64,000 nt of DNA, taken from contig NZ_WMEA01000001.1 of NCBI RefSeq assembly GCF_021735925.1, positions 533,501 to 597,500 on the forward strand, read 5' to 3'. Both the position numbers and the translations under genes were made by a program. The DNA is from Loktanella sp. M215 (GTDB lineage Bacteria > Pseudomonadota > Alphaproteobacteria > Rhodobacterales > Rhodobacteraceae). Below are positions 14,672-35,731 of this stretch, in pieces (within the stretch, counting starts at the first letter, position 1; each line of letters opens with the position of its first letter). The notes under the pieces are model-generated. The model ran no database searches. It was not told the DNA's origin and saw only the letters and a program-made list of their open reading frames with translations.

Positions 14672-14747
14672 GGGCCGGTAGCTCAGTTGGTAGAGCAACT
14701 GACTTTTAATCAGTAGGTCTCGGGTTCGGATCCCGACCGGCTCACCA
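14672..14747 (+). tRNA. tRNA-Lys (anticodon TTT)
   Basis: A 76-base cloverleaf with the acceptor stem GGGCCGG paired to CCGGCTC, D-arm GCTCAGTTGGTAGAGC, anticodon loop CTTTTAA giving TTT, T-arm GGGTTCGGATCCC, and an encoded CCA end. The 3' half (from 14702) is the left attachment site of the genomic island; the gene remains whole at this end. Confidence 0.97.
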
Positions 14748-14749
14748 CA
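14702..14749 (+). repeat. attL: 48-bp direct repeat within tRNA-Lys
   Basis: Identical to 35684-35731. It runs from the anticodon loop through the encoded CCA and two further bases, the usual target of tyrosine integrases. Confidence 0.95.
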
Positions 14750-16847: not shown

Positions 16848-17906
16848 ATGGCAAACACCCATACAGACGTATCAACCAACAGTTTATTGCTACCGGATCA
16901 GTTAGGTAAGCTATCGAGTGAACAGAGACAGAAGGTAGTTAATCACACAGACGAACATCGTTTACTAGACGAGTTGGAAGCTAGAAGACTGAGACAATCC
17001 CGAATTGATATCTTTATGAAGAAATGCGCTAATGCTGTTGACAGACGCGACCAGGGTAAGTCTGCATTGACGAAGTCTGAACGTGAGGTGGTTAACTTAG
17101 TGACCGGAGGTGATCGCTATCGTCAGACGCGATTACGCCAAACATTTTCTTGCGTCGCATCCAACCCGTACGCCCGTAACATCTTCTTCGATGGGGTCTA
17201 CAGCCAACTTGAGCAAAACTGGCAGCATCCATCTGCCTCTATGTACTTTGCTACTTTTATTGACCGAGATTGGTGTCTGCCGAAGGGTGCGAAGACTGTG
17301 GATATTGCGTCAATGCAGGCCCGGACTGAAGGTGCCCTTAAAGAGATGGGTTGGGATGCCATACTTTTCTTGGAAATTCAGGCTGTAGCTAACTTGGGCA
17401 AGGTCAAGTTCCTTGCGCACCTTCATGGCTTCCTATGGAAGCGAGGCTCTAAAGGAGTAGGTGTTCGGCGTCTGCAAAATACTCTGAACCAGAAGTTCCA
17501 AGGGATCGGGCACTCAAAGGGCGTAACCTTGATGCTAGTTAAAAAATCTCATCCAAACGCGCTATCGACTAGATTTTTTTATGCGACTAAGCTCCCAGAT
17601 ACAGGAAAGTCTTTTTCACCGGTGCAAAATTCGGAAAAATCTTATAATCTAGATAGCCGAGGGCGCATGAAAGCATCGCATCCCAAAAACTATACCGATT
17701 TAGATGCCCTCAGGACAGCACGGATGCTCGGGCAGCAACAGATAGACGATATTGTGTTTGCGGTCGGAGAGGGAAGTTCCGTTAAGGCCTCGGGAGCGGA
17801 TGCTTTAACGGCTAAAGTTGAGACCCTTTTTCAGGCGAAGCCTGATCCGACACCAGCACGGGTTTCAAAGGCTTTCTCAAAGCTCTTACGGGATCGAGAG
17901 GAATAG
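16848..17906 (+). CDS. Candidate HUH-type replication initiator of the island
   Basis: I cannot name a family, but the 352-residue protein has the ordered motifs of rolling-circle Rep/HUH endonucleases. These are a beta-strand TFIDRDW at about 136-142 (motif 1-like), HLHGFLW at 191-197 (a His-x-His metal site) and FFYATK at 243-248, where Tyr245 would be the nucleophile and Lys248 the helper. The N-terminus is charged and helical and the C-terminus contains a probable DNA-binding tail. A perfect 16-bp palindrome lies about 120 bases downstream. It follows the excisionase-like gene. It may replicate an excised island, or it may be a relaxase-like or an unrelated protein. Confidence 0.55.
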   Translation: MANTHTDVSTNSLLLPDQLGKLSSEQRQKVVNHTDEHRLLDELEARRLRQSRIDIFMKKCANAVDRRDQGKSALTKSEREVVNLVTGGDRYRQTRLRQTFSCVASNPYARNIFFDGVYSQLEQNWQHPSASMYFATFIDRDWCLPKGAKTVDIASMQARTEGALKEMGWDAILFLEIQAVANLGKVKFLAHLHGFLWKRGSKGVGVRRLQNTLNQKFQGIGHSKGVTLMLVKKSHPNALSTRFFYATKLPDTGKSFSPVQNSEKSYNLDSRGRMKASHPKNYTDLDALRTARMLGQQQIDDIVFAVGEGSSVKASGADALTAKVETLFQAKPDPTPARVSKAFSKLLRDREE

Positions 17907-18786: not shown

Positions 18787-19197
18787 TTAGATCTGCTGAC
18801 CTTCAGGCACGCTATCCAACAGTGCCGATATGAAGCGGGACCGGCTTAACTCCGATCCTGAGTAACGCTTTATGGCCGCGACGCTGACGATCCGCCCTGA
18901 GCGGCGAACCTTGATGTAGGTGGCGTCCAGCCAGAGGTAGGGCCACTCGCCCTCCAGCGGTCTGTTGAGGAAAGCGTCAACACGTTCGTCGATCTCGACG
19001 CATAGGCGCGAGACCTGGCTCTTGGAGGCGCCGGTCATGCCTATCGCTTCCACCAGATCATCGACTGAACGACTAGAAACGCCCCAAATGTAGGCTTCTT
19101 GGATCACAGCTGTCATCGCCTTTTTCGAGGCCCGACGGGGCTCAAGAAACTCCAGAAAATATGACCCCTTCCTCGATCGGTAGGTCAGTTTCGGAAC
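18787..19197 (-). pseudogene. IS256-family transposase fragment
   Basis: The frame encodes [16 protein letters not shown], then [40 protein letters not shown] and [20 protein letters not shown], the central part of mutator/IS256 transposases including the first catalytic Asp. It begins after an in-frame stop and loses similarity after IVSVAAIK, so both ends are missing. A remnant only, evidence of earlier insertion activity in the island. Confidence 0.85.
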
Positions 19198-19448: not shown

Positions 19449-19634
19449 ATGTCAAAAGACGAAAGGCGTAAATCTATTAATGAAGGTTTGAGTTCTGAAA
19501 ATCTTAAGAAAGGCCTAAGCTCTGCGAATCTTCAATCAGCGCTGAGTAAACCGCCAGCTCCGTCTCGTGGTCAACCATCAGATACGGGTCAGAATCAGGG
19601 ACCCTCAAATAATACGCAGAACGGTGACAAGTAA
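19449..19634 (+). CDS. Small hypothetical protein upstream of the CHAT locus
   Basis: The 61-residue protein has an N-terminal half with an imperfect repeat (GLSSENLKKG, GLSSANLQSA) likely to form an amphipathic helix, and a disordered C-terminal half rich in Pro, Ser, Gln, Asn and Gly. No family recognised. Its stop is 13 bases before the start of the next gene and the following two genes share its strand and low G+C, so the three may form one operon. It could be a regulator or inhibitor of the membrane protein or protease; this is speculation from position only. Confidence 0.5.
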   Translation: MSKDERRKSINEGLSSENLKKGLSSANLQSALSKPPAPSRGQPSDTGQNQGPSNNTQNGDK

Positions 19635-19647
19635 TGTCGTTGAAGCG

Positions 19648-20151
19648 ATGATGACAGATGATGTTGTCATATCGGCTTGCGCTGCATTGCTTTCCGCTTT
19701 TGCTGCTATTTTATCTGCGCTAGCTGCTGTAATCGGCTTGGGGTTCATTGGTTGGCAGATAAGGCAAGCGCGGAAAACTTCTGACTTTACAACGCTTCAG
19801 GCGTTCTTGAAGGATGCCAAGGATTGCGAAAATGCCTTAATGTCGGATAATCTAGGTGATGGACGAAAGGCGTTTATAGAACTCATGAATTTTCTGGAAA
19901 TCTACGCAGTGGCCCTAAATAAGGGGCTAGTACCAAAAGTCAGTCGTGATGTTATTCGTCTAAAGTTATGCGATTCTTTAGCAGTTATACAGAATGCGCC
20001 AAAATGGCATGTCGTTTTGGAGGAGGCTATATCTAGTCCGGAAACCTTTGAGGAATTACAGAAATTTATGACCAAAAATAAGTGTAGAATCGTGGCATTG
20101 CAAAAAGCACAAGCGGCTCTCGATGCGCAAAAGGTAGATTTGCCAAGATAA
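19648..20151 (+). CDS. Membrane-anchored protein paired with a CHAT-like protease
   Basis: The 167-residue protein has one strongly hydrophobic N-terminal segment (ISACAALLSAFAAILSALAA and on to IGLGFIGWQI), then a basic RQARKTSDFTTLQAF start of a helical cytoplasmic domain of about 120 residues. The architecture, one membrane helix plus a helical cytosolic domain, is common in prokaryotic defence effectors but I do not recognise the family. Start is ATG at 19648, with 19651 as alternative. It lies 73 bases before the protease gene on the same strand. Proteolytic activation of this protein by its neighbour is a hypothesis only. Confidence 0.6.
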   Translation: MMTDDVVISACAALLSAFAAILSALAAVIGLGFIGWQIRQARKTSDFTTLQAFLKDAKDCENALMSDNLGDGRKAFIELMNFLEIYAVALNKGLVPKVSRDVIRLKLCDSLAVIQNAPKWHVVLEEAISSPETFEELQKFMTKNKCRIVALQKAQAALDAQKVDLPR

Positions 20152-20224
20152 AATATTATGGTGGCTTGATCCATTACCTATATTTGTATATAAGAGGTCA
20201 AATTTCTCAGAGTTTGGGGCCGAA

Positions 20225-20836
20225 ATGGCGAAAACCATTGCAGATGTTTTTATCATTGAGACTCTTAACCCCGATGATGAAGGTAATGGTCGTTTCGAAG
20301 GGAGTAGTATTTCGCATCTACTCCGACTTCACGGGAAAATGCCAAGGTATAGATACGTTCGGACTCGAAAGTGCTTTGAGAGCGCTCTAAACGATTTTGG
20401 GGTATCGGGGTATCGTTATTTGCATATCTCGGCTCATGCAAATTCAGGTGGGATGGTTACTACAAACGATGAAGAGATAGCTTATGGTGAACTATCGGAC
20501 CTACTTACGCCACACTTGAAGGGAAAGCGTCTATTTCTATCAGCTTGCGCAATGGTACATGATGATATGGCTAAGGCGATCATACCGAAGACTGGATGTT
20601 ATTCTGTTGTGGGTCCTAGCGAAGATATTGAGTTTGCAACTGCAGCAGTATTTTGGCCGGCAATATACCATATGATGCTTTCTCAAAATGGTTCTGCGAT
20701 GAAGCATCCGGAACTCAAGGAAAACCTTAGGCGGGTGACGGATCTATTCGGAGTTGATATTGGATACTATTCAATTTCTAAGAAGCTTAAACGCGGATAT
20801 AGTCGAAACTTTCTGTTCAAGAACAAAACTAACTGA
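20225..20836 (+). CDS. CHAT/caspase-like cysteine protease
   Basis: The 203-residue protein shows the caspase-fold core: YRYLHISAHANSGG with His71 after a hydrophobic strand, and LKGKRLFLSACAM with Cys108 ending the next strand, the His-Cys dyad of CHAT (clan CD) peptidases. The N-terminal part (ADVFIIETLN) fits the first strand. No TPR or sensor domain is fused, so it is a minimal protease domain. A GGGG sequence precedes the ATG. CHAT proteases act in several bacterial immune systems, for example activating gasdermins or acting with CRISPR type III-E, but here the partner is a single-span membrane protein. Substrate unknown. Confidence 0.65.
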   Translation: MAKTIADVFIIETLNPDDEGNGRFEGSSISHLLRLHGKMPRYRYVRTRKCFESALNDFGVSGYRYLHISAHANSGGMVTTNDEEIAYGELSDLLTPHLKGKRLFLSACAMVHDDMAKAIIPKTGCYSVVGPSEDIEFATAAVFWPAIYHMMLSQNGSAMKHPELKENLRRVTDLFGVDIGYYSISKKLKRGYSRNFLFKNKTN

Positions 20837-21255: not shown

Positions 21256-21732
21256 TCAAGACCTCGCCGGGAAGACGGGGATGGCAGGGATCTCGATGCG
21301 TTTCAGAGCAGTTTCAGGTGTACGTATGAAGTCGGCCAACGACCGGAGGCTTTGCTCGGCCGCCCCTTTGCCGAGAGCGCACTCCCAGACGACCGCAACC
21401 TTCCAGCCTGCTTCTTTTAATGCCTGCTGTGCTCTTGCATCCCTTGCGACGTTGGCATCAAACTTCCTTTGCCAAAATTCGGGCCTCGTAGACACAGTCG
21501 TCGTACGTGCGCAGCCGGAGTGCCGGTGCCAGAAACAGCCATGCACAAAGATCGCCGTGCGCCATTTGGTAAGAACGATGTCCGGAGATCCCGGAAGGGC
21601 CCGGACATCTAGGCGAAAGCGAAATCCGCCTGCATGCAGCGCCTGTCGTACTACAATTTCGGGTTTGGTATCCCTGCGGCCTATGGCCGCCATCATTCGC
21701 GAGCGAACATCGGGCGATACGACATCGACCAT
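21256..21732 (-). CDS. vsr: Very short patch repair endonuclease (Vsr)
   Basis: Vsr nicks next to T:G mismatches that arise by deamination of methylcytosine, protecting the genome from its own cytosine methyltransferase. The 158-residue protein has VRSRMMAAIGRRDTKPEIVV, FRLDVRALPGSPDIVLTKWR (catalytic Asp), and AIFVHGCFWHRHSGC with the zinc-binding Cys and His, all diagnostic. It starts about 80 bases from the oppositely oriented cytosine methyltransferase, the standard vsr-dcm association. In MORC-type systems a Vsr-fold nuclease may also contribute to restriction; the present copy looks like a normal repair enzyme. Confidence 0.93.
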   Translation of the reverse strand: MVDVVSPDVRSRMMAAIGRRDTKPEIVVRQALHAGGFRFRLDVRALPGSPDIVLTKWRTAIFVHGCFWHRHSGCARTTTVSTRPEFWQRKFDANVARDARAQQALKEAGWKVAVVWECALGKGAAEQSLRSLADFIRTPETALKRIEIPAIPVFPARS

Positions 21733-21809
21733 TTTGTTCCTTCCGTATGCTGGACCTGGTATGTGCCGACATTTCGAGGTTAGAAGAGCTTGCAGTAAAG
21801 GAAAAACGC

Positions 21810-23315
21810 ATGAGCAGGCAATTCGGCATCATCGATCTCTTCGCGGGTCCAGGAGGACTTGGCGAAGGGTTTTCAGTTGCGGGCCGCGAAACTGACATCT
21901 CGATGAAAATTCACCTATCCATCGAGAAGGAGGCGACCGAGATCAGGACGCTCCGTCTTCGCTCATTCCTTCGCAATTTCGAGGACGGGTTTCCTGCACG
22001 CTACTACGAAGTACTGAACAACGACCTCGCCATGCCCGACTGGGGCATCCTAAACCCCTTCGAATGGGCGCGGGCGGAAAATGAAGTTCGCCAGCTGGAA
22101 TTAGGGCGGCCCGGCGTGTTCGAGAAAATCACGGAGGTGCTGGATGAGGCGCGCGAAGGCTGCCACGGCGACACGATCCTGATCGGCGGCCCTCCCTGTC
22201 AGGCCTATTCCCTTGCGGGCAGGTCCCGGAACGCCGGCAAGGCCGGGTATGTCCCTGAAGAGGACAATCGCCATTTCCTCTACCGCGAATATGTCGCGAT
22301 CCTGAACAGGCTGCGGCCCGCCGCCTTTGTCCTGGAAAACGTGAAGGGCATGATTTCAAGCAAGGTAGGTGGTGGCGATATTTTCCAGCGCGTGCTGGAC
22401 GATCTCCGCGTTGCTGGGGATGGATACACGTTGCTCCCATTGGCCGCCCCGCGGGTGTCAGACGTTTTTGCCGCGACCGACTTCATCGTCCGGGCGGATG
22501 AGCATGGTGTGCCTCAGGCGCGACACCGGGTCTTCATTGTTGGTATCCGGAGCGACATCGCAATACCAGAGGGGACCGAGCCGCTGCTTCAGAAGGTCGA
22601 TCACGCCGAGCGTGCCGACGTCTATTCGGTTATCGCCACGATGCCTCGCCTGCGCAGCGGTCTAAGCCGAGGTGGTGACGATTTTGACCGCTGGCAGTCG
22701 ATCATACATGACCACGCCGATCGCATTATCGCCAGCAACGAGGTTCCCGACGATATTCGAGCCGCGATGCGGAAGCTCAAGGATAAAGGGCTCGCCACTG
22801 TAACTCAGCGCAGCTCGACGCGGAGCGCGGGAAACATTGCCGAGAGGCAGTCTGCGCTTGACGACTGGCTTCGTGACGCCTCGTTGGACCGCATCATGGG
22901 CCACGAGACGCGAGCACACATTCCGGGCGACCTAGGACGATACCTTTACGCTTCGCTTTTCGCGCAGGAACGCGACAAGTCGCCGAAACTGGGTGATTTC
23001 CCATCCTTCCTCCTTCCGGAGCACAAGAACAGGGACAGCGGGAAGTTCGTGGATCGTTTCCGTGTACAGATCGGAAGCCGTCCATCGAGCACCGTGACAA
23101 GTCACATCTCGAAGGATGGACATTATTTCATCCACCCGGATCCCGCACAGGTCCGGGCCTTGACGGTCCGTGAAGCCGCGCGTCTCCAGACTTTCCCGGA
23201 CAACTACTTCTTCTGTGGAAACAGGACCAAGCAATACCATCAGGTCGGCAATGCCGTTCCTCCTTACTTAGCACTGCAGATCGCTCGGGTCGTACGCGAT
23301 CTGGTCAATGGTTGA
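21810..23315 (+). CDS. DNA (cytosine-5-)-methyltransferase
   Basis: A C5-cytosine methyltransferase with motif I DLFAGPGGLGEGF, motif IV GGPPCQAYSLAG (catalytic Cys near residue 130), motif VI ENVKG, motif VIII QARHRVFIVG, and motifs IX-X RPSSTVTSHI, REAARLQTFPDNY and QVGNAVPPYLA. The variable region before motif IX is long and should determine the target site. ATG at 21810 is preferred because AAAGGA precedes it; an in-frame ATG at 21747 adds 21 residues that overlap the divergent vsr promoter. It protects host DNA from the restriction genes on the opposite strand downstream. Confidence 0.93.
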   Translation: MSRQFGIIDLFAGPGGLGEGFSVAGRETDISMKIHLSIEKEATEIRTLRLRSFLRNFEDGFPARYYEVLNNDLAMPDWGILNPFEWARAENEVRQLELGRPGVFEKITEVLDEAREGCHGDTILIGGPPCQAYSLAGRSRNAGKAGYVPEEDNRHFLYREYVAILNRLRPAAFVLENVKGMISSKVGGGDIFQRVLDDLRVAGDGYTLLPLAAPRVSDVFAATDFIVRADEHGVPQARHRVFIVGIRSDIAIPEGTEPLLQKVDHAERADVYSVIATMPRLRSGLSRGGDDFDRWQSIIHDHADRIIASNEVPDDIRAAMRKLKDKGLATVTQRSSTRSAGNIAERQSALDDWLRDASLDRIMGHETRAHIPGDLGRYLYASLFAQERDKSPKLGDFPSFLLPEHKNRDSGKFVDRFRVQIGSRPSSTVTSHISKDGHYFIHPDPAQVRALTVREAARLQTFPDNYFFCGNRTKQYHQVGNAVPPYLALQIARVVRDLVNG

Positions 23316-23354
23316 CGGCAGACAGCCGTCACCTGAAAGGTGTCGGCTGCTTGA

Positions 23355-25154
23355 TCACTTTAACTCCGGGACACCGCGCAGAGGCGTTCGTATGTGGATG
23401 CTGCGAACCTTTTCCCAGAAGTCTGCACCCTTTGCTATCTCTGAGAACTGCCGCCCACGTCCCCACTTCCTGAAGGCTGCGTTCACTTCGATTGCGCATT
23501 CCATACACACATCCAGCAGTTGCTTCGAAATGCCTTGCTGTAACCAAATCCGTTGCAGGTCGACACGATCACCAAGCTGCTCCGCCAGCAGCGACACTGT
23601 ATAAGTCGCAATGTAGATGTACCCTTGCTGGAAGGTATGCTTCATGTCCTTCTTGCGAATTATCGCTTCGATGGCCTTGAGCAGCAGGACCTTAGCAATC
23701 ATTTCTTTGAACCATATCTCGTTCAGCGGCCGCGGCACAATCGAAGGGTCCTCATCCAGCGCCGCCATGAATGCGGCAAAGTTCTTCTCTCCACCGAGTG
23801 CCACTTGGTATGGCAGCCCGCGCCATGCCTCGAGATACTTGGCAACATCGTTCTTGGTCAGTTTTCGCTTCGAAGGAATCTCATTCAGCATGTCCCTCTT
23901 CTGCGCAGGCGTCCGACCGCGCCTGAGAATTTCCACCTGATATGAACCGGCCGCTCGTTCGTAGAACCAGCGTCCGGTCCCGTCAGGGCACCAAGTCGCC
24001 TTAGATAACTTCTCCAGCTCAACATGAATTTGGCGGTTCGCAGAGAGGTCCGAGGTCTTCACCGCATTTTGGCTGTTGGCGTAACGGGAAATGTTGCCGA
24101 TCAGCTTTTCCCTCCCCTCTGCTTCATCATTCTTCAGGATGATGATTTTCGCAGGTACACTGACTTTTGAGAGGTCGATCCCCTTGTTGTCACGTGTCGC
24201 GAAGTAGATGGAGGAACTTGTCTGACCGCCATTCACGATCTGCAGGCCACGCATACTCGCGACACCTGTCGTGCCGTCCTCTCTTTGGATCAACTGTGCA
24301 TCGTCGCAGACGATCACGAGACCGTTGTTGAAGGCCATGAAGTGCCCCGGCTCTTCAGCTAAGGTCGCCGCAATTCCCTTGTTTACCTTGCTTCTCCCGC
24401 CGAGGAATGAGCGGACGTTTTTCTCTAGCAGCATAGTATTGTAGCGCTCGTAAAGGCTGCGGATGACCTCACCGGGAATTGCTGCGAGGGCATAGTCGTA
24501 GTCCAGTTCCGGCGCTGGTATGTGCACGCAGGGCAGTGGCATGCCGAGGATCTGCTCGAAGTTCAAAGCGATCTCGTCGCGCGGTTTTCCTGACGAGTGG
24601 CGGTACAAGCGCTCGACATCGATCAACTCGACTTGGACTATTCGCCCCTCGACATCTTGGGGCTTCAACCGTTTGGCCTTCGTGAGACCGTCCGTGAGAA
24701 CGAAGATGCGGAACTGATCCAACTTTGGCCAATCCGTCTCTAGTACTTGGACGAGGCCCAAGATCTCGCTGGAGGGATCGAGCCGGTTGAGTAGCTTTCC
24801 GCGCGCGGCGCTGATCGCGAAGTTCAGGGTTTGCTTCGCGACCGCCGTAATTTCTGCTCCAGAGGCATCAGTAAGGGTATCGATTCCTAGGTAATGCGTG
24901 ACAAATAGATCTATCCGAGTCTGATCGTCGGAGAGGGCATATCCGGAAATGCGTAGCGTCGCATTGCCGATCTTGCCGGTCCAATGACAGGTCTCCGGTT
25001 GCCCGGTGAGCCCCGCTTCTGAAATGTCGGTCATAACCAGTTCGCTGAAGACGAGGTCTTCCGACGGATAGTTCAAGTCAGGATCTTCGATCCGCTGGGT
25101 CACGGCTATCCGAACCCTTTCCATGAGATTGGCGTGAAACTCTTCCATTTCCAT
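23355..25154 (-). CDS. AIPR (abortive infection phage resistance) family protein
   Basis: The 599-residue protein has the AIPR family core: YERYNTMLLEKNVRSFLGG, then NKGIAATLAEEPGHFMAFNN, GLVIVCDDA and IVNGGQTSSSIYFAT. AIPR proteins occur in phage-resistance loci; the biochemical role is not known. It is the last gene of a four-gene minus-strand operon (MORC ATPase, Z1 ATPase, DUF4420, AIPR), starting one base after the DUF4420 stop. It converges with the methyltransferase gene 39 bases away, so methylation and restriction parts meet tail to tail. Confidence 0.85.
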   Translation of the reverse strand: MEMEEFHANLMERVRIAVTQRIEDPDLNYPSEDLVFSELVMTDISEAGLTGQPETCHWTGKIGNATLRISGYALSDDQTRIDLFVTHYLGIDTLTDASGAEITAVAKQTLNFAISAARGKLLNRLDPSSEILGLVQVLETDWPKLDQFRIFVLTDGLTKAKRLKPQDVEGRIVQVELIDVERLYRHSSGKPRDEIALNFEQILGMPLPCVHIPAPELDYDYALAAIPGEVIRSLYERYNTMLLEKNVRSFLGGRSKVNKGIAATLAEEPGHFMAFNNGLVIVCDDAQLIQREDGTTGVASMRGLQIVNGGQTSSSIYFATRDNKGIDLSKVSVPAKIIILKNDEAEGREKLIGNISRYANSQNAVKTSDLSANRQIHVELEKLSKATWCPDGTGRWFYERAAGSYQVEILRRGRTPAQKRDMLNEIPSKRKLTKNDVAKYLEAWRGLPYQVALGGEKNFAAFMAALDEDPSIVPRPLNEIWFKEMIAKVLLLKAIEAIIRKKDMKHTFQQGYIYIATYTVSLLAEQLGDRVDLQRIWLQQGISKQLLDVCMECAIEVNAAFRKWGRGRQFSEIAKGADFWEKVRSIHIRTPLRGVPELK

Positions 25155-25155
25155 T

Positions 25156-26166
25156 TCAGTTCACCCCCAGCGTCCGGAGCATCTCCGCTTCCGTCCGGCA
25201 CGCAGTTTCGATAGTTGCTAGGTCAAGATCGTAGCTGGCTGCCATGATCTGCGGCGGTAGCGAATCGCGGCGTAGGCATGGGAAATTTTCCTCCACCAAG
25301 AAACATGACTGTTCTGCGATAGCGAGCGGGCGGTCGTACGAGGCTTCGTGTTCCGCGAAGTATCGGCAGGCGAAGAGTATGGCTTGAAATCGTTGCGCCG
25401 CGCCACTGTCAAGCATTCTTATCTTCAAGCGCGCCACGAGATCGCGCAGTGCCTCCCCCTTCGGATCCTCGGAAAAACGCACGGCGACGAGGAACAGCGG
25501 CTCGCGGTCGCTGTCGAGTTGCTCTATGCTGTTGATCTTCGCTCTAAAGGTGCGGGTCGAAGCCGTCGCCTTCACTTCCACGGCACCAACTGCGACATGG
25601 AAGTCCTGTGCCGCTCGGAACGGTCCCTGCCACATGCCCAGAGCCATCTGAGCATCCCCGGTGCCGTTTAACAGTGTCTCGAGGAAGCATAGCTCGCCCT
25701 GCAATCCCGCCTGCTTCTCAGGTGATAGAGGTTTCGAGCGATCGGCGGACATGAAGACCTGCCAATCGGTCACGCGGCTCAGGAAGGCATCGAGCAATTC
25801 GGGCGCGCGCCCATGTGCATGCATTTCGACATGACGGAGCACGTCAACAGCCATCATGGTGAAGAGGTCGGATGCTCCTCCTGGTGCCCGTACCAAGGCT
25901 AGCATCGGCGCACCGCCTTCCAGCTGCCACTCGGAGATGCGCAACATATCAAAACCGGTGCCCTTGGGCAGCTTGAGCGTCGGCGGCAGCAAGTCCGAAT
26001 GAACGCGGATCAAGATGCCCTCACGATTCCCAGGTGCCGCACGCCCCGCGAGTAGTCGGGCCTCCGGCAGATTAGCCAAAACGGAAACTCGCCACTGCAA
26101 GTTTTCGTCAAGGCCTGAGAGGGCTTTCCAGATCCGAGCGAGATCGAGTTCAGTCCACGTTGGCAT
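25156..26166 (-). CDS. DUF4420 PD-(D/E)XK-like protein of the MORC system
   Basis: The 336-residue protein begins MPTWTELDLARIWKALSG. A conserved GLQGELCFLETLL helix supplies an acidic residue and is followed by FRAAQDFHVAVGAVEVKATA. This gives the order E, D, ExK expected for a PD-(D/E)XK nuclease core, as in the DUF4420 family. It is the probable DNA-cutting subunit. The ATG at 26166 lies inside the end of the Z1 gene (17-base overlap); a longer frame to 26292 is antisense-like extra sequence within Z1. The stop is one base from the AIPR start, so all are translationally linked. Confidence 0.82.
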   Translation of the reverse strand: MPTWTELDLARIWKALSGLDENLQWRVSVLANLPEARLLAGRAAPGNREGILIRVHSDLLPPTLKLPKGTGFDMLRISEWQLEGGAPMLALVRAPGGASDLFTMMAVDVLRHVEMHAHGRAPELLDAFLSRVTDWQVFMSADRSKPLSPEKQAGLQGELCFLETLLNGTGDAQMALGMWQGPFRAAQDFHVAVGAVEVKATASTRTFRAKINSIEQLDSDREPLFLVAVRFSEDPKGEALRDLVARLKIRMLDSGAAQRFQAILFACRYFAEHEASYDRPLAIAEQSCFLVEENFPCLRRDSLPPQIMAASYDLDLATIETACRTEAEMLRTLGVN

Positions 26167-28999
26167 TGATTGCCCCCCAAGCCACGGAAGTCGCCATGTA
26201 GTCGGCATTGCTGACGGTCCGGCGCGAGGCCGTGCCGGGGAAGCTGATTGCCCAAGCGAGAAGTGGCGGGTGCCCATCGAAGGCCATGCCACCGCTGCGG
26301 ACGGGGTCGATCAGATAGAGGTTCAGCTGGCCTCGATTGCCGTTGGGCTTCAGCCCGTATCTCCTCCCCTCTGGCCCGAGAACAAACCGTATTGCAGTCC
26401 CGCGCGGCTCTGTCGGCTCCATTCGGTCCTGTCCGCGTTCGATATCGTCCCTCCATACCTTCCGCGTGTGCTCCAAAGCGGCGCTCCACTCGGGGTTTGT
26501 TAGCCCGATGGCCTCGTCCCAAGAGGAGATGAGCGTCTTGATAGAATGCCTTCCTTCCTCACGTCCGGTGAAGCTACGCTTAATCATACGGATGTCATGT
26601 CCGCCTAGGTTCGTTTCCGGCGGACCATCTCCAGTCCCGACCAGCGCGACTGTCCACTGCATCAACTCCCCGTCTCTGTTCACAGCGTCGATGAAATCCG
26701 CAATTAATGGGGAGACGACACGGAAGGATGCCGGATGCGTCCGGTACTCCCGCAGGAACTCGATAATATGATTTGAGCGCACACCCTGCCACCACCGACC
26801 GGTCCAGTTATGTCCTCCCGTATGGAACGATGGGCAACCCAGATCCATCCCATCACCCATTGCGCACACGAGGCGGTGTCCGGCATCGAGATTTACCTGA
26901 AGGATGTCGAGGGACTTCGCAAAGGTGATGGTCTGGAGCAGATCACCTGAATAGCTCAGAAATATGGGCTTGGCGCTCTTCATTTTGGCGCGGGAGGTGA
27001 TCGTCATCGTGGAATGCGATTTGACACGGAGCCCGAACTCGCGGGGCGTTGCCCCCATGGCCGCCATGTTATCGAACTCCTCGCGCAGCTCTTCCGAGGC
27101 CTCTGCGATATGGCCGAACCACTGGATCATCTCGTCCGTCGTATAGAGGCGGCACACATCGAGATATCCGTCTCGATAGCCGAACCAGCGCCCCATTTGC
27201 ATCAGCGTATCGTACATACGCGCCGAGCGCAGGAAATAGCTCGTGCAAAGCCCCTCCAGCGTGAGGCCCCGAGCCAGTTTGTCACCGCCCACGGCGATTA
27301 CCTTCAGGCCGGTGTGCTCGTTGTCGGCGTAGTCGAGGGCTTCCTTGGCTGACCCGTTGATCTCGCGTACCTCAATGTCTTCAAGTACGTCAGGTAGCAC
27401 CTCCCGCACCTCATCCCACGAGAATGTTCGGTTCTTTGCCTCGTCCAGGAATGCTTCCCTGATTTCTGCCATGTCGGCGCTGAACTTGCGCTCGTATTCG
27501 TCTCGCATCATCGGCTCTGCTTCTTCCAGCCCGATCCCGCGTTTCCAACGCCGCTCCAGCTGGCGGTGGTACGCAGCAACCTGCGCCACGACGTCCTTCT
27601 GGACAGATGTGAAGCGCGAGACGTGAACCAGCATGGAGGTATGCTTGGCACCTTGCCCCCTTAGCTTGCGGATCGCGCAGGCATAGACGAAGGAGCGAAT
27701 CGCTTCCTCGAGGCTGTCGGGAAGTCGAGCTTGGCCGCCGATCATCGGGTGGTAGCCATTCTTGTGGCCCATCGGGATCCATTCGGAAAAGTCTTCCAGC
27801 TTGAGACCTTGCACGAGTGGTAATTCCTCAGCGGTGGAGCGCGACGTTCCGAAGACCCTTCCTGGGCCGACGTAGTTCGAGGATGCCGCAAGGTTGTTGA
27901 TGAAGGCGGCCGGGAACAAGTCCGGTCCATGTGCCTCTGTCCGCCCCTTGTCATGGATGAAGATGTTGGCGAAGGGCGTTGCGGTGTAGCCCACGTACGC
28001 CTTGCGGGTGAAGCTGTGTAAGATGCGACGGATCAGCCGGTTAATCGTTGTCGGATCGTGTTCGGTGTCCACATTGCCCAGATCGTCGACAGGCTTTTCG
28101 CCGGTATCGACTGAACCTTGGTCGGACTCGTCGTCGATGACCAAAAGAGGCAGTTTTGATACGAGCCGCCGTTTCGTATCCGTCTCCTCGGTGTCCCAAG
28201 CGTGGTTGTCGATCCAGTACTGCAAGCGCTCTAGAACAGTCTTGTTTTTCTTAACCACGAAAAGCCAAGGCTTCTGCTCGGGGCTGATAGCTAGGCTGTT
28301 CGCGCGTTGCTTAGTGAAATCACCCTTGTCGCTGCGATTGGTTGCACAATTAGGGCGAATGTCCAGATCGCTGTCCAGCAACCCGACGCCCACACGCGGC
28401 AGTTCGTCCACGTTGACGAGTGTCGCATAGCCCAAGAAACCTTCATCGAGTCGGATTTGGGTTTGGGCGCGCAAGTTGTTGTGCAACCCGGCAAGCACGA
28501 TGATGATTTTGTATCCTGCATCCGCCGCCTTGCAGATCAGACCGGTGTAGTTGCCTGTCTTCCCGGACTGGACATGCCCTACGACTAATCCGCGTCGATC
28601 CCATGCGCCGGGGCGTTTCGGATCCTCGAGATTGCCCAAGATGTCGTCAGTATCGCGATCCAGCCCCTCGACTGCCGAAATTGGTAGTCGCCCTTCAAGG
28701 TGGTCCGAATATCGCGGCCAGTATTTCCAGCCCTTCTTGCGCTCTGCGTTCAGCCAGTCTTCATGGTCCTCGCCATTCTTCAGCGTCGCACTCTGCCCTG
28801 CGCTGCGGCTGAACCTTCGGATCAATTCAAGCGTAACCTCTTCTCGATCAACAGCTTCGAAGGCGTCTTCCAACAGCACTTCGACCTTGGCGAGCTGTAG
28901 CTCGATCAATGCCGGCGTAACGTCGTCACCCGTCTTCCTTACGTGTCGGTCGAGGAGCGTCTGCGCCATCTTGAGCACATCTTGGAATACATTCTGCAT
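26150..28999 (-). CDS. Z1-domain superfamily II ATPase/helicase-like protein
   Basis: The 949-residue protein has a Walker A motif GHVQSGKT (141-148), Walker B LLVIDDESDQ (285-294), a GYTATPFANIF motif III-like box and the family end of the helicase core (GGDKLARGLTLEGLCTSYFL, then DTLMQMGRWFGYRDGYLD). This is the Z1 signature found in predicted restriction systems with GHKL/MORC ATPases. It probably translocates or remodels DNA for the nuclease-like partner. It starts 12 bases after the MORC gene stop and overlaps DUF4420 by 17 bases. Confidence 0.9.
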   Translation of the reverse strand: MQNVFQDVLKMAQTLLDRHVRKTGDDVTPALIELQLAKVEVLLEDAFEAVDREEVTLELIRRFSRSAGQSATLKNGEDHEDWLNAERKKGWKYWPRYSDHLEGRLPISAVEGLDRDTDDILGNLEDPKRPGAWDRRGLVVGHVQSGKTGNYTGLICKAADAGYKIIIVLAGLHNNLRAQTQIRLDEGFLGYATLVNVDELPRVGVGLLDSDLDIRPNCATNRSDKGDFTKQRANSLAISPEQKPWLFVVKKNKTVLERLQYWIDNHAWDTEETDTKRRLVSKLPLLVIDDESDQGSVDTGEKPVDDLGNVDTEHDPTTINRLIRRILHSFTRKAYVGYTATPFANIFIHDKGRTEAHGPDLFPAAFINNLAASSNYVGPGRVFGTSRSTAEELPLVQGLKLEDFSEWIPMGHKNGYHPMIGGQARLPDSLEEAIRSFVYACAIRKLRGQGAKHTSMLVHVSRFTSVQKDVVAQVAAYHRQLERRWKRGIGLEEAEPMMRDEYERKFSADMAEIREAFLDEAKNRTFSWDEVREVLPDVLEDIEVREINGSAKEALDYADNEHTGLKVIAVGGDKLARGLTLEGLCTSYFLRSARMYDTLMQMGRWFGYRDGYLDVCRLYTTDEMIQWFGHIAEASEELREEFDNMAAMGATPREFGLRVKSHSTMTITSRAKMKSAKPIFLSYSGDLLQTITFAKSLDILQVNLDAGHRLVCAMGDGMDLGCPSFHTGGHNWTGRWWQGVRSNHIIEFLREYRTHPASFRVVSPLIADFIDAVNRDGELMQWTVALVGTGDGPPETNLGGHDIRMIKRSFTGREEGRHSIKTLISSWDEAIGLTNPEWSAALEHTRKVWRDDIERGQDRMEPTEPRGTAIRFVLGPEGRRYGLKPNGNRGQLNLYLIDPVRSGGMAFDGHPPLLAWAISFPGTASRRTVSNADYMATSVAWGAINANVD

Positions 29000-29011
29000 G
29001 TCCGGTCCCGT

Positions 29012-30511
29012 TCAGTCGTTGAGGAGCAAAGTGACAAGCTCCGGCTTTTCGTCGAATGGAGGAGTGCGACCCAGTCGGGCGATTGCCTCTTCCTCGGGCA
29101 TGCCCCGGTCCTCGACAAAGGCAGCGAAAAGTTCCCGCATGACCTCTAGAATTTCTGCGTCCCTTTCGTCGAGCAAGCTGCTGCGAGGCGGTTCGTCGCG
29201 CTCGGTGGTGTCGAGCCAGATCCGTTGAACCGGCACTGTACCCTCTACTAGCTTCAGCAGGGCTTCTACCTCCCGTCGGTGCGTTCCCGCGCTGCGCAGC
29301 ACGGATTCCACAAGCGGATGACTTCGTGGGATGCGATATATCGTTCCGTCCTGCTTGCGGATCGATTCCCAGATTGCGGGCAATCCCTCCTTTGTGCTGC
29401 CGGATGCTGCCACAAGGCGTCCACGATGCGCAAAGACACTGCGCGCTCGCGCTCGCGCTTCCAGCGCAATCTTGGCCAAATGCGGACGCAGCGTAACAGG
29501 TGGCGTCGCGGTGGATTTGAGGATGTCAACTTTCCAAGCGGCATCGGCAGTGTTCGGGATGTCGAGCATGATCCGGGCAAGACGGTGCGGTTCATCACGC
29601 GTCAGCTGTCTACCACGCTCGTCCTTCAACCGAAGCCAGCCGCCGAGGGCAATTAGTCTCCTGTTGCGATATATGTAGAAGCCTTGCTGTGCCGCCCATC
29701 CAGCGGGCCCGGCAGCGCCTATCATTTCCCTCTCTGACTTCAGCATATCCTTGTGCGGGAGGATGTGCATTTGGACCGTCACACCGGTGCCATGGCCCAT
29801 ACGCAGCAGTGTTCCTTCGTATGCCTTGCCGGGGTGGCCGGTCATGAAAGGGTCCCAAGTTTTCACCTCACGCCCGTTGATAATGAGACAAACGGATTGA
29901 TCCGCGATTAGGCGGTGGAAAGTCATCGCGAGATGCGCTTCGATTCCTTCTGCGAGTTCATGGAAGTCGTTCTCGGTAAAACCGTCGACCACCAATCTGT
30001 CAAGTTCTTCCCAGAGCACCACCGTCCCGTTCTTGGAAGGCTTTACGCTCTTCAAGATGGCTTCGCTTTCATCAGCTGGACCTTCATGGAGGGACCATTC
30101 CGCGCCCTCCTCATTCTGGAGAAGATTGAGGTCCCAGCGAAGGCAGGTCTGGGGGTGTCCATGCTTCCGACTCGAAACAGTCAGCCGTCGTGCTTGAGAA
30201 AAACTGGCAGTTTTCAGCCCCATGCCGAACCGTCCGAGGTCATTGTCTGCTCGAGTTTCGCGCGCGTCCTTGGCGCCAAGCTGAAGCGCACGTTCGAGTT
30301 CCATGTCCGACATACCCACCCCATCATCGGTAATGGCCAACCAGCTCGACTGTCCCGCCCAATGGAGGTGAATGTTGACCGTGCTCGCATGAGCCGAAAT
30401 CGAGTTGTCGATGATATCGGCGATAGCCGTTGAGGGAGAATAGCCGAGACCTCTCAACGCTTCGACCATTGCCGCGGCACGAGGCGGCGCCTGACGCGTT
30501 CGACCGGTCAT
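29012..30511 (-). CDS. GHKL ATPase of the prokaryotic MORC/paraMORC type
   Basis: The 499-residue protein carries the Bergerat ATP-binding fold: AIADIIDNSISA (30-40, Asn36 for Mg), TDDGVGM (61-67) and DLGRFGMGLKTAS (91-103). It is followed by an S5-like transducer region containing RNRRLIALGGWLRL. MORC-type ATPases are thought to clamp or loop DNA; in bacteria they occur with Z1, PD-(D/E)XK proteins and methyltransferases. The usual catalytic Glu in the first box is Asp32 here. It is the first gene of the four-gene operon, downstream of the ankyrin gene. Confidence 0.88.
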   Translation of the reverse strand: MTGRTRQAPPRAAAMVEALRGLGYSPSTAIADIIDNSISAHASTVNIHLHWAGQSSWLAITDDGVGMSDMELERALQLGAKDARETRADNDLGRFGMGLKTASFSQARRLTVSSRKHGHPQTCLRWDLNLLQNEEGAEWSLHEGPADESEAILKSVKPSKNGTVVLWEELDRLVVDGFTENDFHELAEGIEAHLAMTFHRLIADQSVCLIINGREVKTWDPFMTGHPGKAYEGTLLRMGHGTGVTVQMHILPHKDMLKSEREMIGAAGPAGWAAQQGFYIYRNRRLIALGGWLRLKDERGRQLTRDEPHRLARIMLDIPNTADAAWKVDILKSTATPPVTLRPHLAKIALEARARARSVFAHRGRLVAASGSTKEGLPAIWESIRKQDGTIYRIPRSHPLVESVLRSAGTHRREVEALLKLVEGTVPVQRIWLDTTERDEPPRSSLLDERDAEILEVMRELFAAFVEDRGMPEEEAIARLGRTPPFDEKPELVTLLLND

Positions 30512-32835: not shown

Positions 32836-33882
32836 CTATATGGCACTGCCAATTATCCTTCCAATAGCATCCACAGCTTTAAGCGCAGGATCGGTGTCAA
32901 CGTGCGCGTATCGTGCTGTCGTTTGCGTTTGAGTGTGACCAAGCAGCCGCCCGATAATGGGGAGTGCGATTCCTTGTCCAACCGCGATACTTGCTGCGGT
33001 GTGTCGCAGGTCGTGGATGCGCAAGTCTGCTAATTCAGCCTCCTTACAAATTAAGGCCCAAGGCTTAGATATGTTAACAATGCACTGGCCCAATTTCCTT
33101 CCGGGAAACACAAATTTGGATGTATGGTCCCGTGAGGTAACCTTTTGATTTCTAAGGATGGCGACAGCCTCACTACTAAGAAACAATGGCTTCGCGCCAG
33201 TCTTGCTGTCGGGCAGTGCTATGATGCGGCGATCCCAGTCGATCCAGTCCCACTCACATGAGGTAATTTCACTGCGGCGAGCCCCAATCAGCAGAAGCAA
33301 GCGAAACAGATTGGCCATGTCTGGCCAAATGATGCCATCATCGACGAGTTTGGAGAGGGTCGCCCCAAGTCTATGGATTTCAGGCTGCGAAAGATAGCGT
33401 TCCCGCTTACCTTCAGGATGCCGGCGCACATATTGGCAGGGATTCGTTCCTTGTGTCCGCCAATCCCACATTTCAGCGAGCGTCATCATCCGGGATAGAA
33501 CAGCGACAGCGCGGTTTCCCTGGTAGGGGGTGTCCTTCATCGCGCTGTGCATTCGGTCCACGTCTGCGCGTGAAACGTCTACAACGCGACGCTGGCCAAA
33601 CATCGGTTGAAGTGTGTTCTTCCAGAGTGCGCGATAATCGCGAGCTGTAGTCGTTTTAAGTCGCGTCATTTCACCAGCATCAAAGCGCAGCCATAAATCT
33701 GTCAGGCTGGGTTCTTGTCGTCGCTGCATCTTGTCGCCTTGTGGGTCCTCGCCGCGTGCAACAGCGGTTGCATACTCACGGGCAATGTTGCGAGCACTTT
33801 CAAGTGGGATTTCGCCATGCGATCCGATGGATATCCAGCGAGACGTAGCCCGCCTGCCACCGCCGTGAGAGCGGTACTTGAA

Positions 33883-33888
33883 TAAGTA
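33883..33888 (+). repeat. Left target-site duplication TAAGTA
   Basis: The same 6 bases follow the right end of the element at 35376-35381. They are present once in the reconstructed integrase. Confidence 0.7.
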
Positions 33889-35375
33889 GTTCGCCCTGAA
33901 TAAGTCACAAGCGTATGATTTTGCTCGTAGATTTCGTAAAAACTGTGGCAGATAATTGCAGGGTTTCGTATGCTGGGTCGCGAAACCTTGCAAATTCCGG
34001 AGCCGAGATGAAGCCTCATCCCCGCACTGACGAGCAGGACGATCTCCTGCGTCCCCGCCTGACTGAGATGATCGATCTTCGCCACGCATTGGCGAAACTG
34101 GAAAAGCTGATTGACTGGGAGTTCTTCGAAACCGAATGGGCCAGTTTCTTTCCCGCCACGACAGGGCGGCCAGCAACATCGCCGCGCCTGGTCGCGGGGC
34201 TGCTGTATCTCCAACATGCCTATCGTCTGTCCGACGACGCCGTCGTCGCCCGATGGGTCGAGAACCCTTACTACCAGCACTTCACCGGTGAGACATTCTT
34301 CCAGCACCGCCCCCCTGTCGATCCGTCCTGCTTGACCCGCTGGCGTCAGCTGATCGGAGAGGAAGGGGCCGAGTGGCTGCTGACCAAGACGATTGAAGCT
34401 GGGGTCACGTCCGGGGCCGTGGAGGATCGCAGTCTCGCGCGCATTGCCGTGGACACGACGGTGATGGAGAAGAACATCGCGCATCCAACGGATGCGCGCC
34501 TGTATGAAAAGGCACGTCGCCAGCTTGTGGCCTTGGCCCAAGAAGGCGAGATCACGCTGCGGCAGAACTACAATCGACTGGCACCCCGCCTCGCAATGCA
34601 GATCGGGCGCTACGCCCACGCCCGGCAATTCAAGCGCATGCGCAAAGCCCTGAAAAAGTTGAAGGGCTACACCGGCCGCATCCTGCGCGACATCCGCCGT
34701 CAGCTCGAGAAAATTCCGGGTGGCGCCTTCCGTGAGCGTGCTCTGGACACCCTCGTGCTCGTCAGTCGCCTGCTGCATCAGAACCCAAAGAGCCATGGCA
34801 AGATTTACGCCCTGCATGAACCCGAGGTCGACTGCATCTCCAAAGGCAAGGCCCGCAAGCGCTATGAGTTCGGGACCAAGGTCAGCCTCGGCCACTACCA
34901 TCGACGAGGGCTTCGTCGTCGGCATGCGCGCCCTGCCGGGCAATCCCTACGATGGGCATACTTTGCCCGAAGCCCTGGAGCAGGTCGCGATCCTGACCGG
35001 TCGGTCTCCGGATCTGGCCGTCGTGGACCGCGGCTATCGCGGCCACGGTGTATCGACGACAAAAGTGCTGATCAGCGGCACGCGCCGGGGCCTGACGCCA
35101 AAGTTGAAGACACTGCTGAGGCGGCGCAGCGCCATAGAACCAGAGATTGGACACATGAAAACTGACGGACGTCTGTCGCGATGCCCGCTCAAGGGGACGT
35201 TCGGCGATGCGGTCTTCGCCGTGCTCTGTGGTTGCGGCCACAACATCCGCAAGATCCTGGCCCACCTCAGGGCTTTGTTGTCCCTCATCCTGACCGCATT
35301 ATGCGCCGCCGCAACGGACAGGATCAGGCCGGCAAACTGCTAACTTGTCGCCGGATCGTGTTGTTCAGCGTGAAC
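33889..35375 (+). mobile_element. IS5/IS1182-like insertion sequence inside the integrase gene
   Basis: The 1,487-bp element is flanked by TAAGTA repeats and ends in imperfect inverted repeats: the left end reads GTTCGCCCTGAATAAG and the right end, reversed, GTTCACGCTGAACAAC. It carries one transposase gene in the opposite direction to the integrase. The transposase is frameshifted, so the element is probably not autonomous now. Confidence 0.85.
34008..35343 (+). pseudogene. Transposase of the IS5/IS1182 type, frameshifted
   Basis: The first frame from ATG 34008 encodes HPRTDEQDDLLRPRLTEM, GLLYLQHAYRLSDDAVVARW and the first catalytic Asp in IAVDTTVMEKN. At about 34890-34900 it runs into nonsense (LGHYHRRGLRRRH). 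The +1 frame continues the expected protein with TTIDEGFVVGMRALPGNPYD, LAVVDRGYRGHG and IEPEIGHMKTDGRL to a stop at 35343. A single extra base in CTCGGCC explains it. The site does not look like a programmed slippery sequence, so a mutation is more likely. Full length would be about 445 residues. Confidence 0.85.
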
Positions 35376-35683: not shown

Positions 35684-35731
35684 ACTTTTAATCAGTAGGT
35701 CTCGGGTTCGGATCCCGACCGGCTCACCACA
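35684..35731 (+). repeat. attR: 48-bp direct repeat, tRNA-Lys 3' half
   Basis: Identical to 14702-14749. It carries only the 3' half of tRNA-Lys, is not a functional tRNA, and marks the right end of the island. About 200 bases of chromosome follow before the moxR-like gene, with no gene seen between. Confidence 0.95.

Follow-up and report, generated by a model that had tools for sequence, protein, structure and literature searches.

The question raised by this locus is whether three neighbouring genes form a single defence system or have only come to lie next to each other. These genes, found in Loktanella sp. M215 in a stretch of 64,000 nucleotides (contig NZ_WMEA01000001.1; the whole stretch is herein referred to as the window), encode a short protein named p61, a membrane protein and a stand-alone CHAT protein of the caspase-like, cysteine-protease type (Table 1). 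In the original prediction, they were taken for a candidate defence locus in which a protease works together with a membrane effector. The analysis favours another arrangement, to which we assign a probability of roughly 60%: two independent mobile conflict modules lying side by side, one being a sensor-less CHAT protease and the other a two-gene membrane-effector cassette formed by p61 and the membrane gene. This reading draws on the fold of the CHAT protein, its invariant dyad, the separate distributions of the two families, the conservation of the gene pair and the island setting.

The distributions bear most directly on the question. When the fetched sequences flanking the CHAT gene in 44 other loci were searched for the membrane gene, no match was significant (best 23% identity, E 0.15), and no match to the CHAT family was found in 13 other cassette loci. 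Both families were found in only one of the 38 genomes with a CHAT relative, that of Microvirga lupini (G802), where they are located on different contigs. Thus, on present data, the trio of the window is a one-off juxtaposition, and the idea that the three genes belong to one system is not supported. A lack of co-occurrence in other genomes is also what the original prediction named as a result that would speak against it. A conserved three-gene system was rejected, as the trio recurred in none of the loci searched.

In such a system, infection would activate the CHAT protein, which would cut p61 or the membrane protein and thereby free a membrane-damaging effector. Given that the pairing of CHAT and cassette is restricted to the window, that the two families are on different contigs in M. 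lupini and that no caspase-fold gene was detected near the cassette in 11 of the 14 cassette loci, this scheme is quite improbable. It would account for the close same-strand spacing of the genes and for their joint location in an A+T-rich pocket. Arg/Lys-directed cleavage is common in caspase-like proteases outside animals, and it would fit a [K/R]-G step present inside the p61-type motif in 11 of the 14 loci. A caspase-fold gene was detected near the cassette in three of the 14 loci, including the window; the other two are the Bosea and Methylorubrum plasmids (L049 and L050), the only ones of the 13 other loci where the cassette adjoins other caspase-family genes. The predicted pairing of a protease with a membrane effector is not supported for the CHAT protein; a trace of it is left in these two plasmids.

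For the 203-residue CHAT protein, the predicted features were largely borne out. A caspase-like fold was predicted for it at high confidence, and the model resembles solved CHAT and caspase structures. The matched region spans residues 2-194 of 203, so a sensor domain is absent. In the model, His71 follows the strand 63-69 and Cys108 follows the strand 102-105, which places the dyad after core strands. Across the 40 aligned members, which include the window protein and are 22-69% identical, four residues (His67, His71, Ser106, and Cys108) never vary; truncated or duplicate loci (L020, L029, L039, L040, and L046) were excluded from this alignment. The retention of His71 and Cys108 over such a range of identity argues for catalysis. 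The protein scores 11.7 bits with the Pfam CHAT model (PF12770), below the gathering cut-off of 24, and no match to this model was found anywhere in its own genome at E <= 0.001. A search of solved structures by sequence gave no significant match, and the best match with a profile, to caspase-3 (E 0.28), was likewise not significant. Five other caspase-domain genes were found in the genome of Loktanella sp. M215; three of these are similar to each other (C2, C3, and C11), and in each of them the match is split into two neighbouring pieces, which are probably in two frames.

The lone CHAT family is a minimal, sensor-less form of a known kind of protease. To our knowledge, other CHAT defence proteins carry sensors or partners. 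Among the matches listed by searches of the open literature, none describes a small CHAT family that stands alone, most subscription papers being outside this coverage.

Relatives of the CHAT protein were found in prophages, plasmids, and islands, and the family is spread over bacteria and archaea. All ORFs (open reading frames) used here came from a crude length-based caller rather than a gene finder. In terms of neighbours, the CHAT gene is a singleton: with ORFs within 6 kb clustered for 43 of the 44 loci (L046 was excluded as a copy of L009), no neighbour family was found in more than three loci. Families reaching three loci were identified by eye as phage-type genes, ABC-type ATPases, and a transposase. 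A membrane protein was considered as a standing partner of the CHAT protein and rejected, since a same-strand neighbour with a predicted span lies within 250 bp in only five of 41 loci (L010, L029, and L046 excluded); some of these spans are located at the extreme N-terminus and are signal-peptide-like.

Phage-type genes, as judged by eye, flank the CHAT gene in L002/L009, L003/L010, and L048. In L002 and L003, the CHAT gene is on the strand opposite to these neighbours, the usual position of a cargo gene. Three of the CHAT loci (L046-L048) come from viral contigs. No result was obtained from a single-sequence search of genome contigs and viral contigs for CHAT relatives, nor from phage records searched with the CHAT protein and with its enterobacterial relative. 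A stretch of 9.87 kb carrying the CHAT gene, a short Argonaute and its Aga partner is 99.7% identical between Pleomorphomonas koreensis (L018:348-10213) and Acidomonas methanolica (L029:6709-16570). These organisms belong to different orders, so the stretch points to a recent transfer between orders.

Defence genes were found next to the CHAT gene in several loci. The CHAT gene is located 99 bp downstream of ThsA-ThsB in L012, adjoins SIR2 and AAA genes in L006 and is convergent with the pair of a short prokaryotic Argonaute and Aga in L018. In L011, a 560-residue protein matching the Orf5/HEC-06/SspE models is encoded 9 bp upstream of it.

In Escherichia coli, the CHAT relative adjoins dinD in all four genomes opened (of six positive; H11 and H12 were excluded). 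The other flank contains yicC and a tyrosine recombinase in three of these genomes and yicL and nlpA in the fourth. In enterobacteria, three genes accompany the CHAT gene, one of the helix-turn-helix (HTH) type, one that is LprI-like and one whose product has about 120 residues. The E. coli dinD islands (L073-L076) contain the CHAT relative with HTH genes and, in most cases, with the LprI-like and small-protein genes. Their cargo is variable, including an S8 peptidase and an AAA gene in L074 and a restriction endonuclease in L075.

An active site kept in all aligned members, the absence of a sensor and a location on mobile DNA are best explained by a protease that is triggered directly or by docking, and the CHAT protein probably acts in abortive defence. 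The protease would stay silent until an infection cue, which may be a phage protein or a partner on which it docks. Once triggered, it would cleave host or phage proteins, and the infection would be aborted. For caspases of Type IV Thoeris, degradation of cellular proteins is described (PMC12847820), and the Canu caspase is described as activating its nuclease partner (PMC12799240). Alternatively, the CHAT protein could be a regulator of a mobile element, a processing protease serving the element, or a binder that retains only the fold. Its solitary occurrence in islands and prophage-like regions, the lack of matches to PADLOC models and the enterobacterial linkage to HTH regulator and LprI-like genes would suit such a role. 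We consider it unlikely, given the conservation of His71 and Cys108 in every aligned member and the defence neighbours at several loci.

The second module, the p61/membrane cassette, was found in 14 loci of Alphaproteobacteria, the window included. In all 14, a short ORF is located directly upstream of the membrane gene on the same strand; with start codons chosen by hand, it encodes 52-86 amino acids. Because it is conserved across the cassette loci, the p61 ORF is taken to be a real gene. The small gene and the membrane gene overlap by 4 bp in eight of the 13 loci computed (all but L082). In the window, a 13-bp gap takes the place of the overlap, and the motif occurs as two repeats. This motif, [KRQ]G[LM][ST], was found in the small ORF of 12 loci, often as [KR]GL[ST]SxNLQxAL; it is missing from L067 and L084, and L050 has two tandem small genes with the motif in the first. 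For comparison, of the 886 ORFs of 50-110 amino acids in the same stretches, 20 contain it, the cassette ORFs being counted among them. The p61-type protein is probably disordered and has one or more copies of GL[S/T][S/T]xNL. Thus, p61 and the membrane gene are a conserved pair and a unit separate from the CHAT gene. No mention of this cassette was found among the matches listed by searches of the open literature, and it may be undescribed so far.

The membrane ORF of the window is open over 19567-20151, and its likely ATG is at 19648 or 19651. Relatives of its product in ten other aligned loci are 21-48% identical. The protein was originally described as a single-span membrane protein with a helical domain. 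One span was found near the N-terminus by a simple hydropathy cut-off (residues 10-28 of the 166-residue form), in agreement with this description. The helical part comes from a single-sequence model that is all-helical and of low confidence (pLDDT 51.5); beyond its span, the protein is probably helical.

A tblastn search of plasmids with the membrane protein found Bosea and Methylorubrum, and a search with a diverged member found four Sinorhizobium plasmids, of which one was entered in the locus count and three (H19-H21) stand outside it. A profile search gave matches in 8 of 298 genomes of the family of M. lupini, that genome included, and in 4 of 257 genomes of its order, these including the already known M. 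lupini genome and one partial match. Among 238 genomes of the window's own family, the membrane gene was found only in the window itself, with one weak partial match, and among 385 genomes sampled from the class, again only in the window, with three weak partial matches. No match was found in viral contigs. Weak matches over about 50-70 residues (G492, G419, G558, G654, G140, and G1347) were excluded; no p61-like ORF was seen in the three of these loci that were read (G419, G558, and G654).

Five of the 14 cassettes are located in defence clusters (L049, L050, L062, L063, and the window). In the Bosea plasmid L049, the cassette lies between a gene for a caspase-DEAD helicase fusion and a run of TIR, caspase, and TIR genes with one more caspase-domain gene. 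The fusion (L049:1451-4573) encodes 1040 amino acids, with similarity to Hachiman HamB models in its helicase part (best match 4.8e-35). In the Methylorubrum plasmid L050, the cassette is divergent from a related run of TIR, caspase, and TIR genes with a small ORF (L050:1947-4356, the small ORF included); this ORF is SLOG-like by eye and has no Pfam match. In L063, the cassette directly follows genes for a SLATT-type two-transmembrane effector and a CD-NTase, and thus stands at the end of a CBASS-type operon. In L062, it precedes genes for Vsr, a C5 methylase and an Eco29kI-type endonuclease.

By the proposed mechanism, the membrane protein would be a membrane-acting effector, either working by itself or serving as a plug-in of nucleotide-signalling defence operons, and the short protein would dock through its motif on the cytosolic helices, restraining or clustering the membrane protein. 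A probably disordered partner that has motif repeats, with its gene immediately ahead of the membrane gene, fits such restraint or clustering, and the location of the cassette downstream of a CBASS-type operon in one locus and next to TIR-caspase genes in two others fits a plug-in effector. A more specific version would have the short protein hold the effector off until cleavage at the conserved [K/R]-G step by caspase-fold proteases, and the cassette captured repeatedly by TIR-caspase systems, CBASS and the lone CHAT protein. This version is a long shot; if true, the cassette would be a counterpart of protease-gated membrane killing that uses a helical protein in place of a gasdermin.

Lone chromosomal copies of the cassette fit an addiction module. 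In this alternative, p61 and the membrane protein act as a toxin-antitoxin or addiction pair that plays no set part in immune signalling, and the proximity to defence genes reflects no more than shared mobile islands. Two tiny genes, often with the 4-bp overlap, a small upstream gene kept with its partner in all loci and single insertions next to housekeeping-like ORFs would be expected of such a cassette. These ORFs resemble, by eye, gyrB, ribonucleotide reductase, H+-pyrophosphatase, and purL. Against this, p61 of the window has no Pfam match of any kind and so no recognisable DNA-binding domain, the defence clusters account for five of the 14 loci, and the cassette of L063 comes directly after the CD-NTase gene. 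The alternative is rather unlikely, though it stands ahead of the other two set out above.

Several observations weigh against the reading as two conflict modules. Nine of the 14 cassette loci have no recognised defence gene, their neighbours being housekeeping-like or insertion-sequence-like (read by eye, except for one scanned ORF of L068); four of the nine (L054, L064, L065, and L083) are on contigs of 6-11 kb with little visible context. Of 11 membrane-protein relatives, the window protein counted among them, the hydropathy cut-off detects a span in eight and none in L049, L062, and L063. Among 144 of 145 ORFs neighbouring CHAT genes (L010, L020, L029, L040, and L046 excluded), matches to ThsA, AbiLi, restriction endonuclease, integrase, and transposase models are among the 25 families listed; this tally has no control set and so does not establish enrichment of the CHAT gene near defence genes. 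The neighbour family tables list 25 of 131, 409, and 169 families. The three genes of the window may be co-transcribed: they share a strand, and the 73-bp gap between the membrane gene and the CHAT gene showed no promoter-like or terminator-like site on the plus strand, so the two modules may be functionally coupled in this host. Finally, we infer the activities, triggers, and targets of both modules.

The setting of the three genes agrees with the original prediction of same-strand genes in an A+T-rich island pocket. They are located on the same strand inside a 21-kb island bounded by a perfect 48-bp direct repeat, one copy of which is the 3' end of a tRNA-Lys gene. All three lie in a pocket with 42.8-49.1% GC across 18-21 kb, compared with roughly 60-70% over large parts of the window. 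The island also contains PADLOC matches to MzaB (5e-150), MzaC (2e-295), MzaD (2e-44), and MzaE (8e-155), accompanied by a C5 methylase (Pfam 6e-44) and Vsr. The Mza gene set comprises MzaB, C, D, and E together with a C5 methylase; thus, the island holds the gene set of an Mza system. In a literature search for MzaE, all of the matches listed were unrelated papers. The arm-domain match of the island integrase begins inside the Pfam model, and the 5' end of its ORF is overlapped by an opposite-strand transposase (DUF772) ORF at 33915-35165. A 352-residue ORF at 16848-17906 has no significant Pfam or PADLOC match.

Table 1. Features of the tRNA-Lys island in the window (positions are those of the window)
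Feature	Coordinates	Strand	Basis
p61, 61 amino acids, P/A/S/T/Q/G/N-rich, two GLSSxNL motif copies; first cassette gene	19449..19634	+	Small ORF upstream of membrane gene in 14/14 loci
Membrane protein, ~167 amino acids; second cassette gene	19648..20151	+	Relatives, hydropathy, sub-threshold DUF4760
Stand-alone CHAT/caspase-fold cysteine-protease-like protein, 203 amino acids; His67, His71, Ser106, Cys108	20225..20836	+	
Mutator-family transposase fragment, directly upstream of p61	18787..19116	-	Pfam Transposase_mut 7.5e-22, only profile positions 104-182 of 379
Left attachment repeat (tRNA-Lys 3' end)	14702..14749	+	Perfect 48-bp direct repeat; tRNA-Lys gene 14672-14747 by ARAGORN
Right attachment repeat, island end	35684..35731	+	Perfect 48-bp direct repeat
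Island tyrosine integrase, 5' part overlapped by opposite-strand transposase ORF	32836..34179	-	Pfam Phage_integrase 1.9e-18 and Arm-DNA-bind_3
Island stretch	21256..30511	.	PADLOC and Pfam matches

The locus thus brings together two compact gene families with no PADLOC match and no Pfam match above cut-off, a minimal caspase-fold protease and a two-gene membrane cassette. The CHAT protein would offer a simple system for how a caspase is switched on without a sensor domain. The cassette, which turns up repeatedly next to restriction, CBASS-type, and TIR-caspase genes, would be a test case for whether membrane effectors are common to unrelated immune systems.

None of the three genes has a match in the PADLOC defence library, in line with the original statement that no described system of this composition was known. 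The proposed likeness to bacterial gasdermin systems, in which a protease adjoins a membrane protein, is one of analogy: no gasdermin match to the membrane protein was found in the Pfam or PADLOC scans, and the protein differs in having a hydropathic span and predicted helices (low-confidence model). It has weak similarity to Pfam DUF4760 over its first 100 residues (E 0.02; 1.5e-4 in the relative L062), which is under the curated cut-off of 25 bits or absent in the four members scanned. The CHAT protein is 14% identical to SAVED-CHAT (PDB 8tl0), which by its title has a SAVED part besides CHAT, whereas the window protein consists of the protease part only. Unlike Craspase TPR-CHAT (Csx29), it has no TPR part; the scanned island ORFs include no CRISPR gene, and no CRISPR or SAVED match was found among them.

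Type IV Thoeris, which pairs a TIR with a caspase-like protease (PMC12847820), resembles the locus in having a caspase-fold protease, here in a defence island, and the cassette lies beside TIR and caspase genes in L049 and L050. It differs in that no TIR gene was found among the 16 island ORFs scanned with Pfam; moreover, the caspases of L049 and L050 belong to Peptidase_C14, unlike the CHAT family of the window. Canu (PMC12799240) has a gated nuclease of the metallo-β-lactamase (MBL) fold as its partner, whereas the partner considered here is a membrane protein with no fixed protease partner, and no MBL-fold match was found among the same 16 island ORFs. What the present modules share with Canu and with recurrent nuclease-protease pairs (PMC12799240) is the acquisition of small modules by unrelated immune systems and the use of a caspase in defence.
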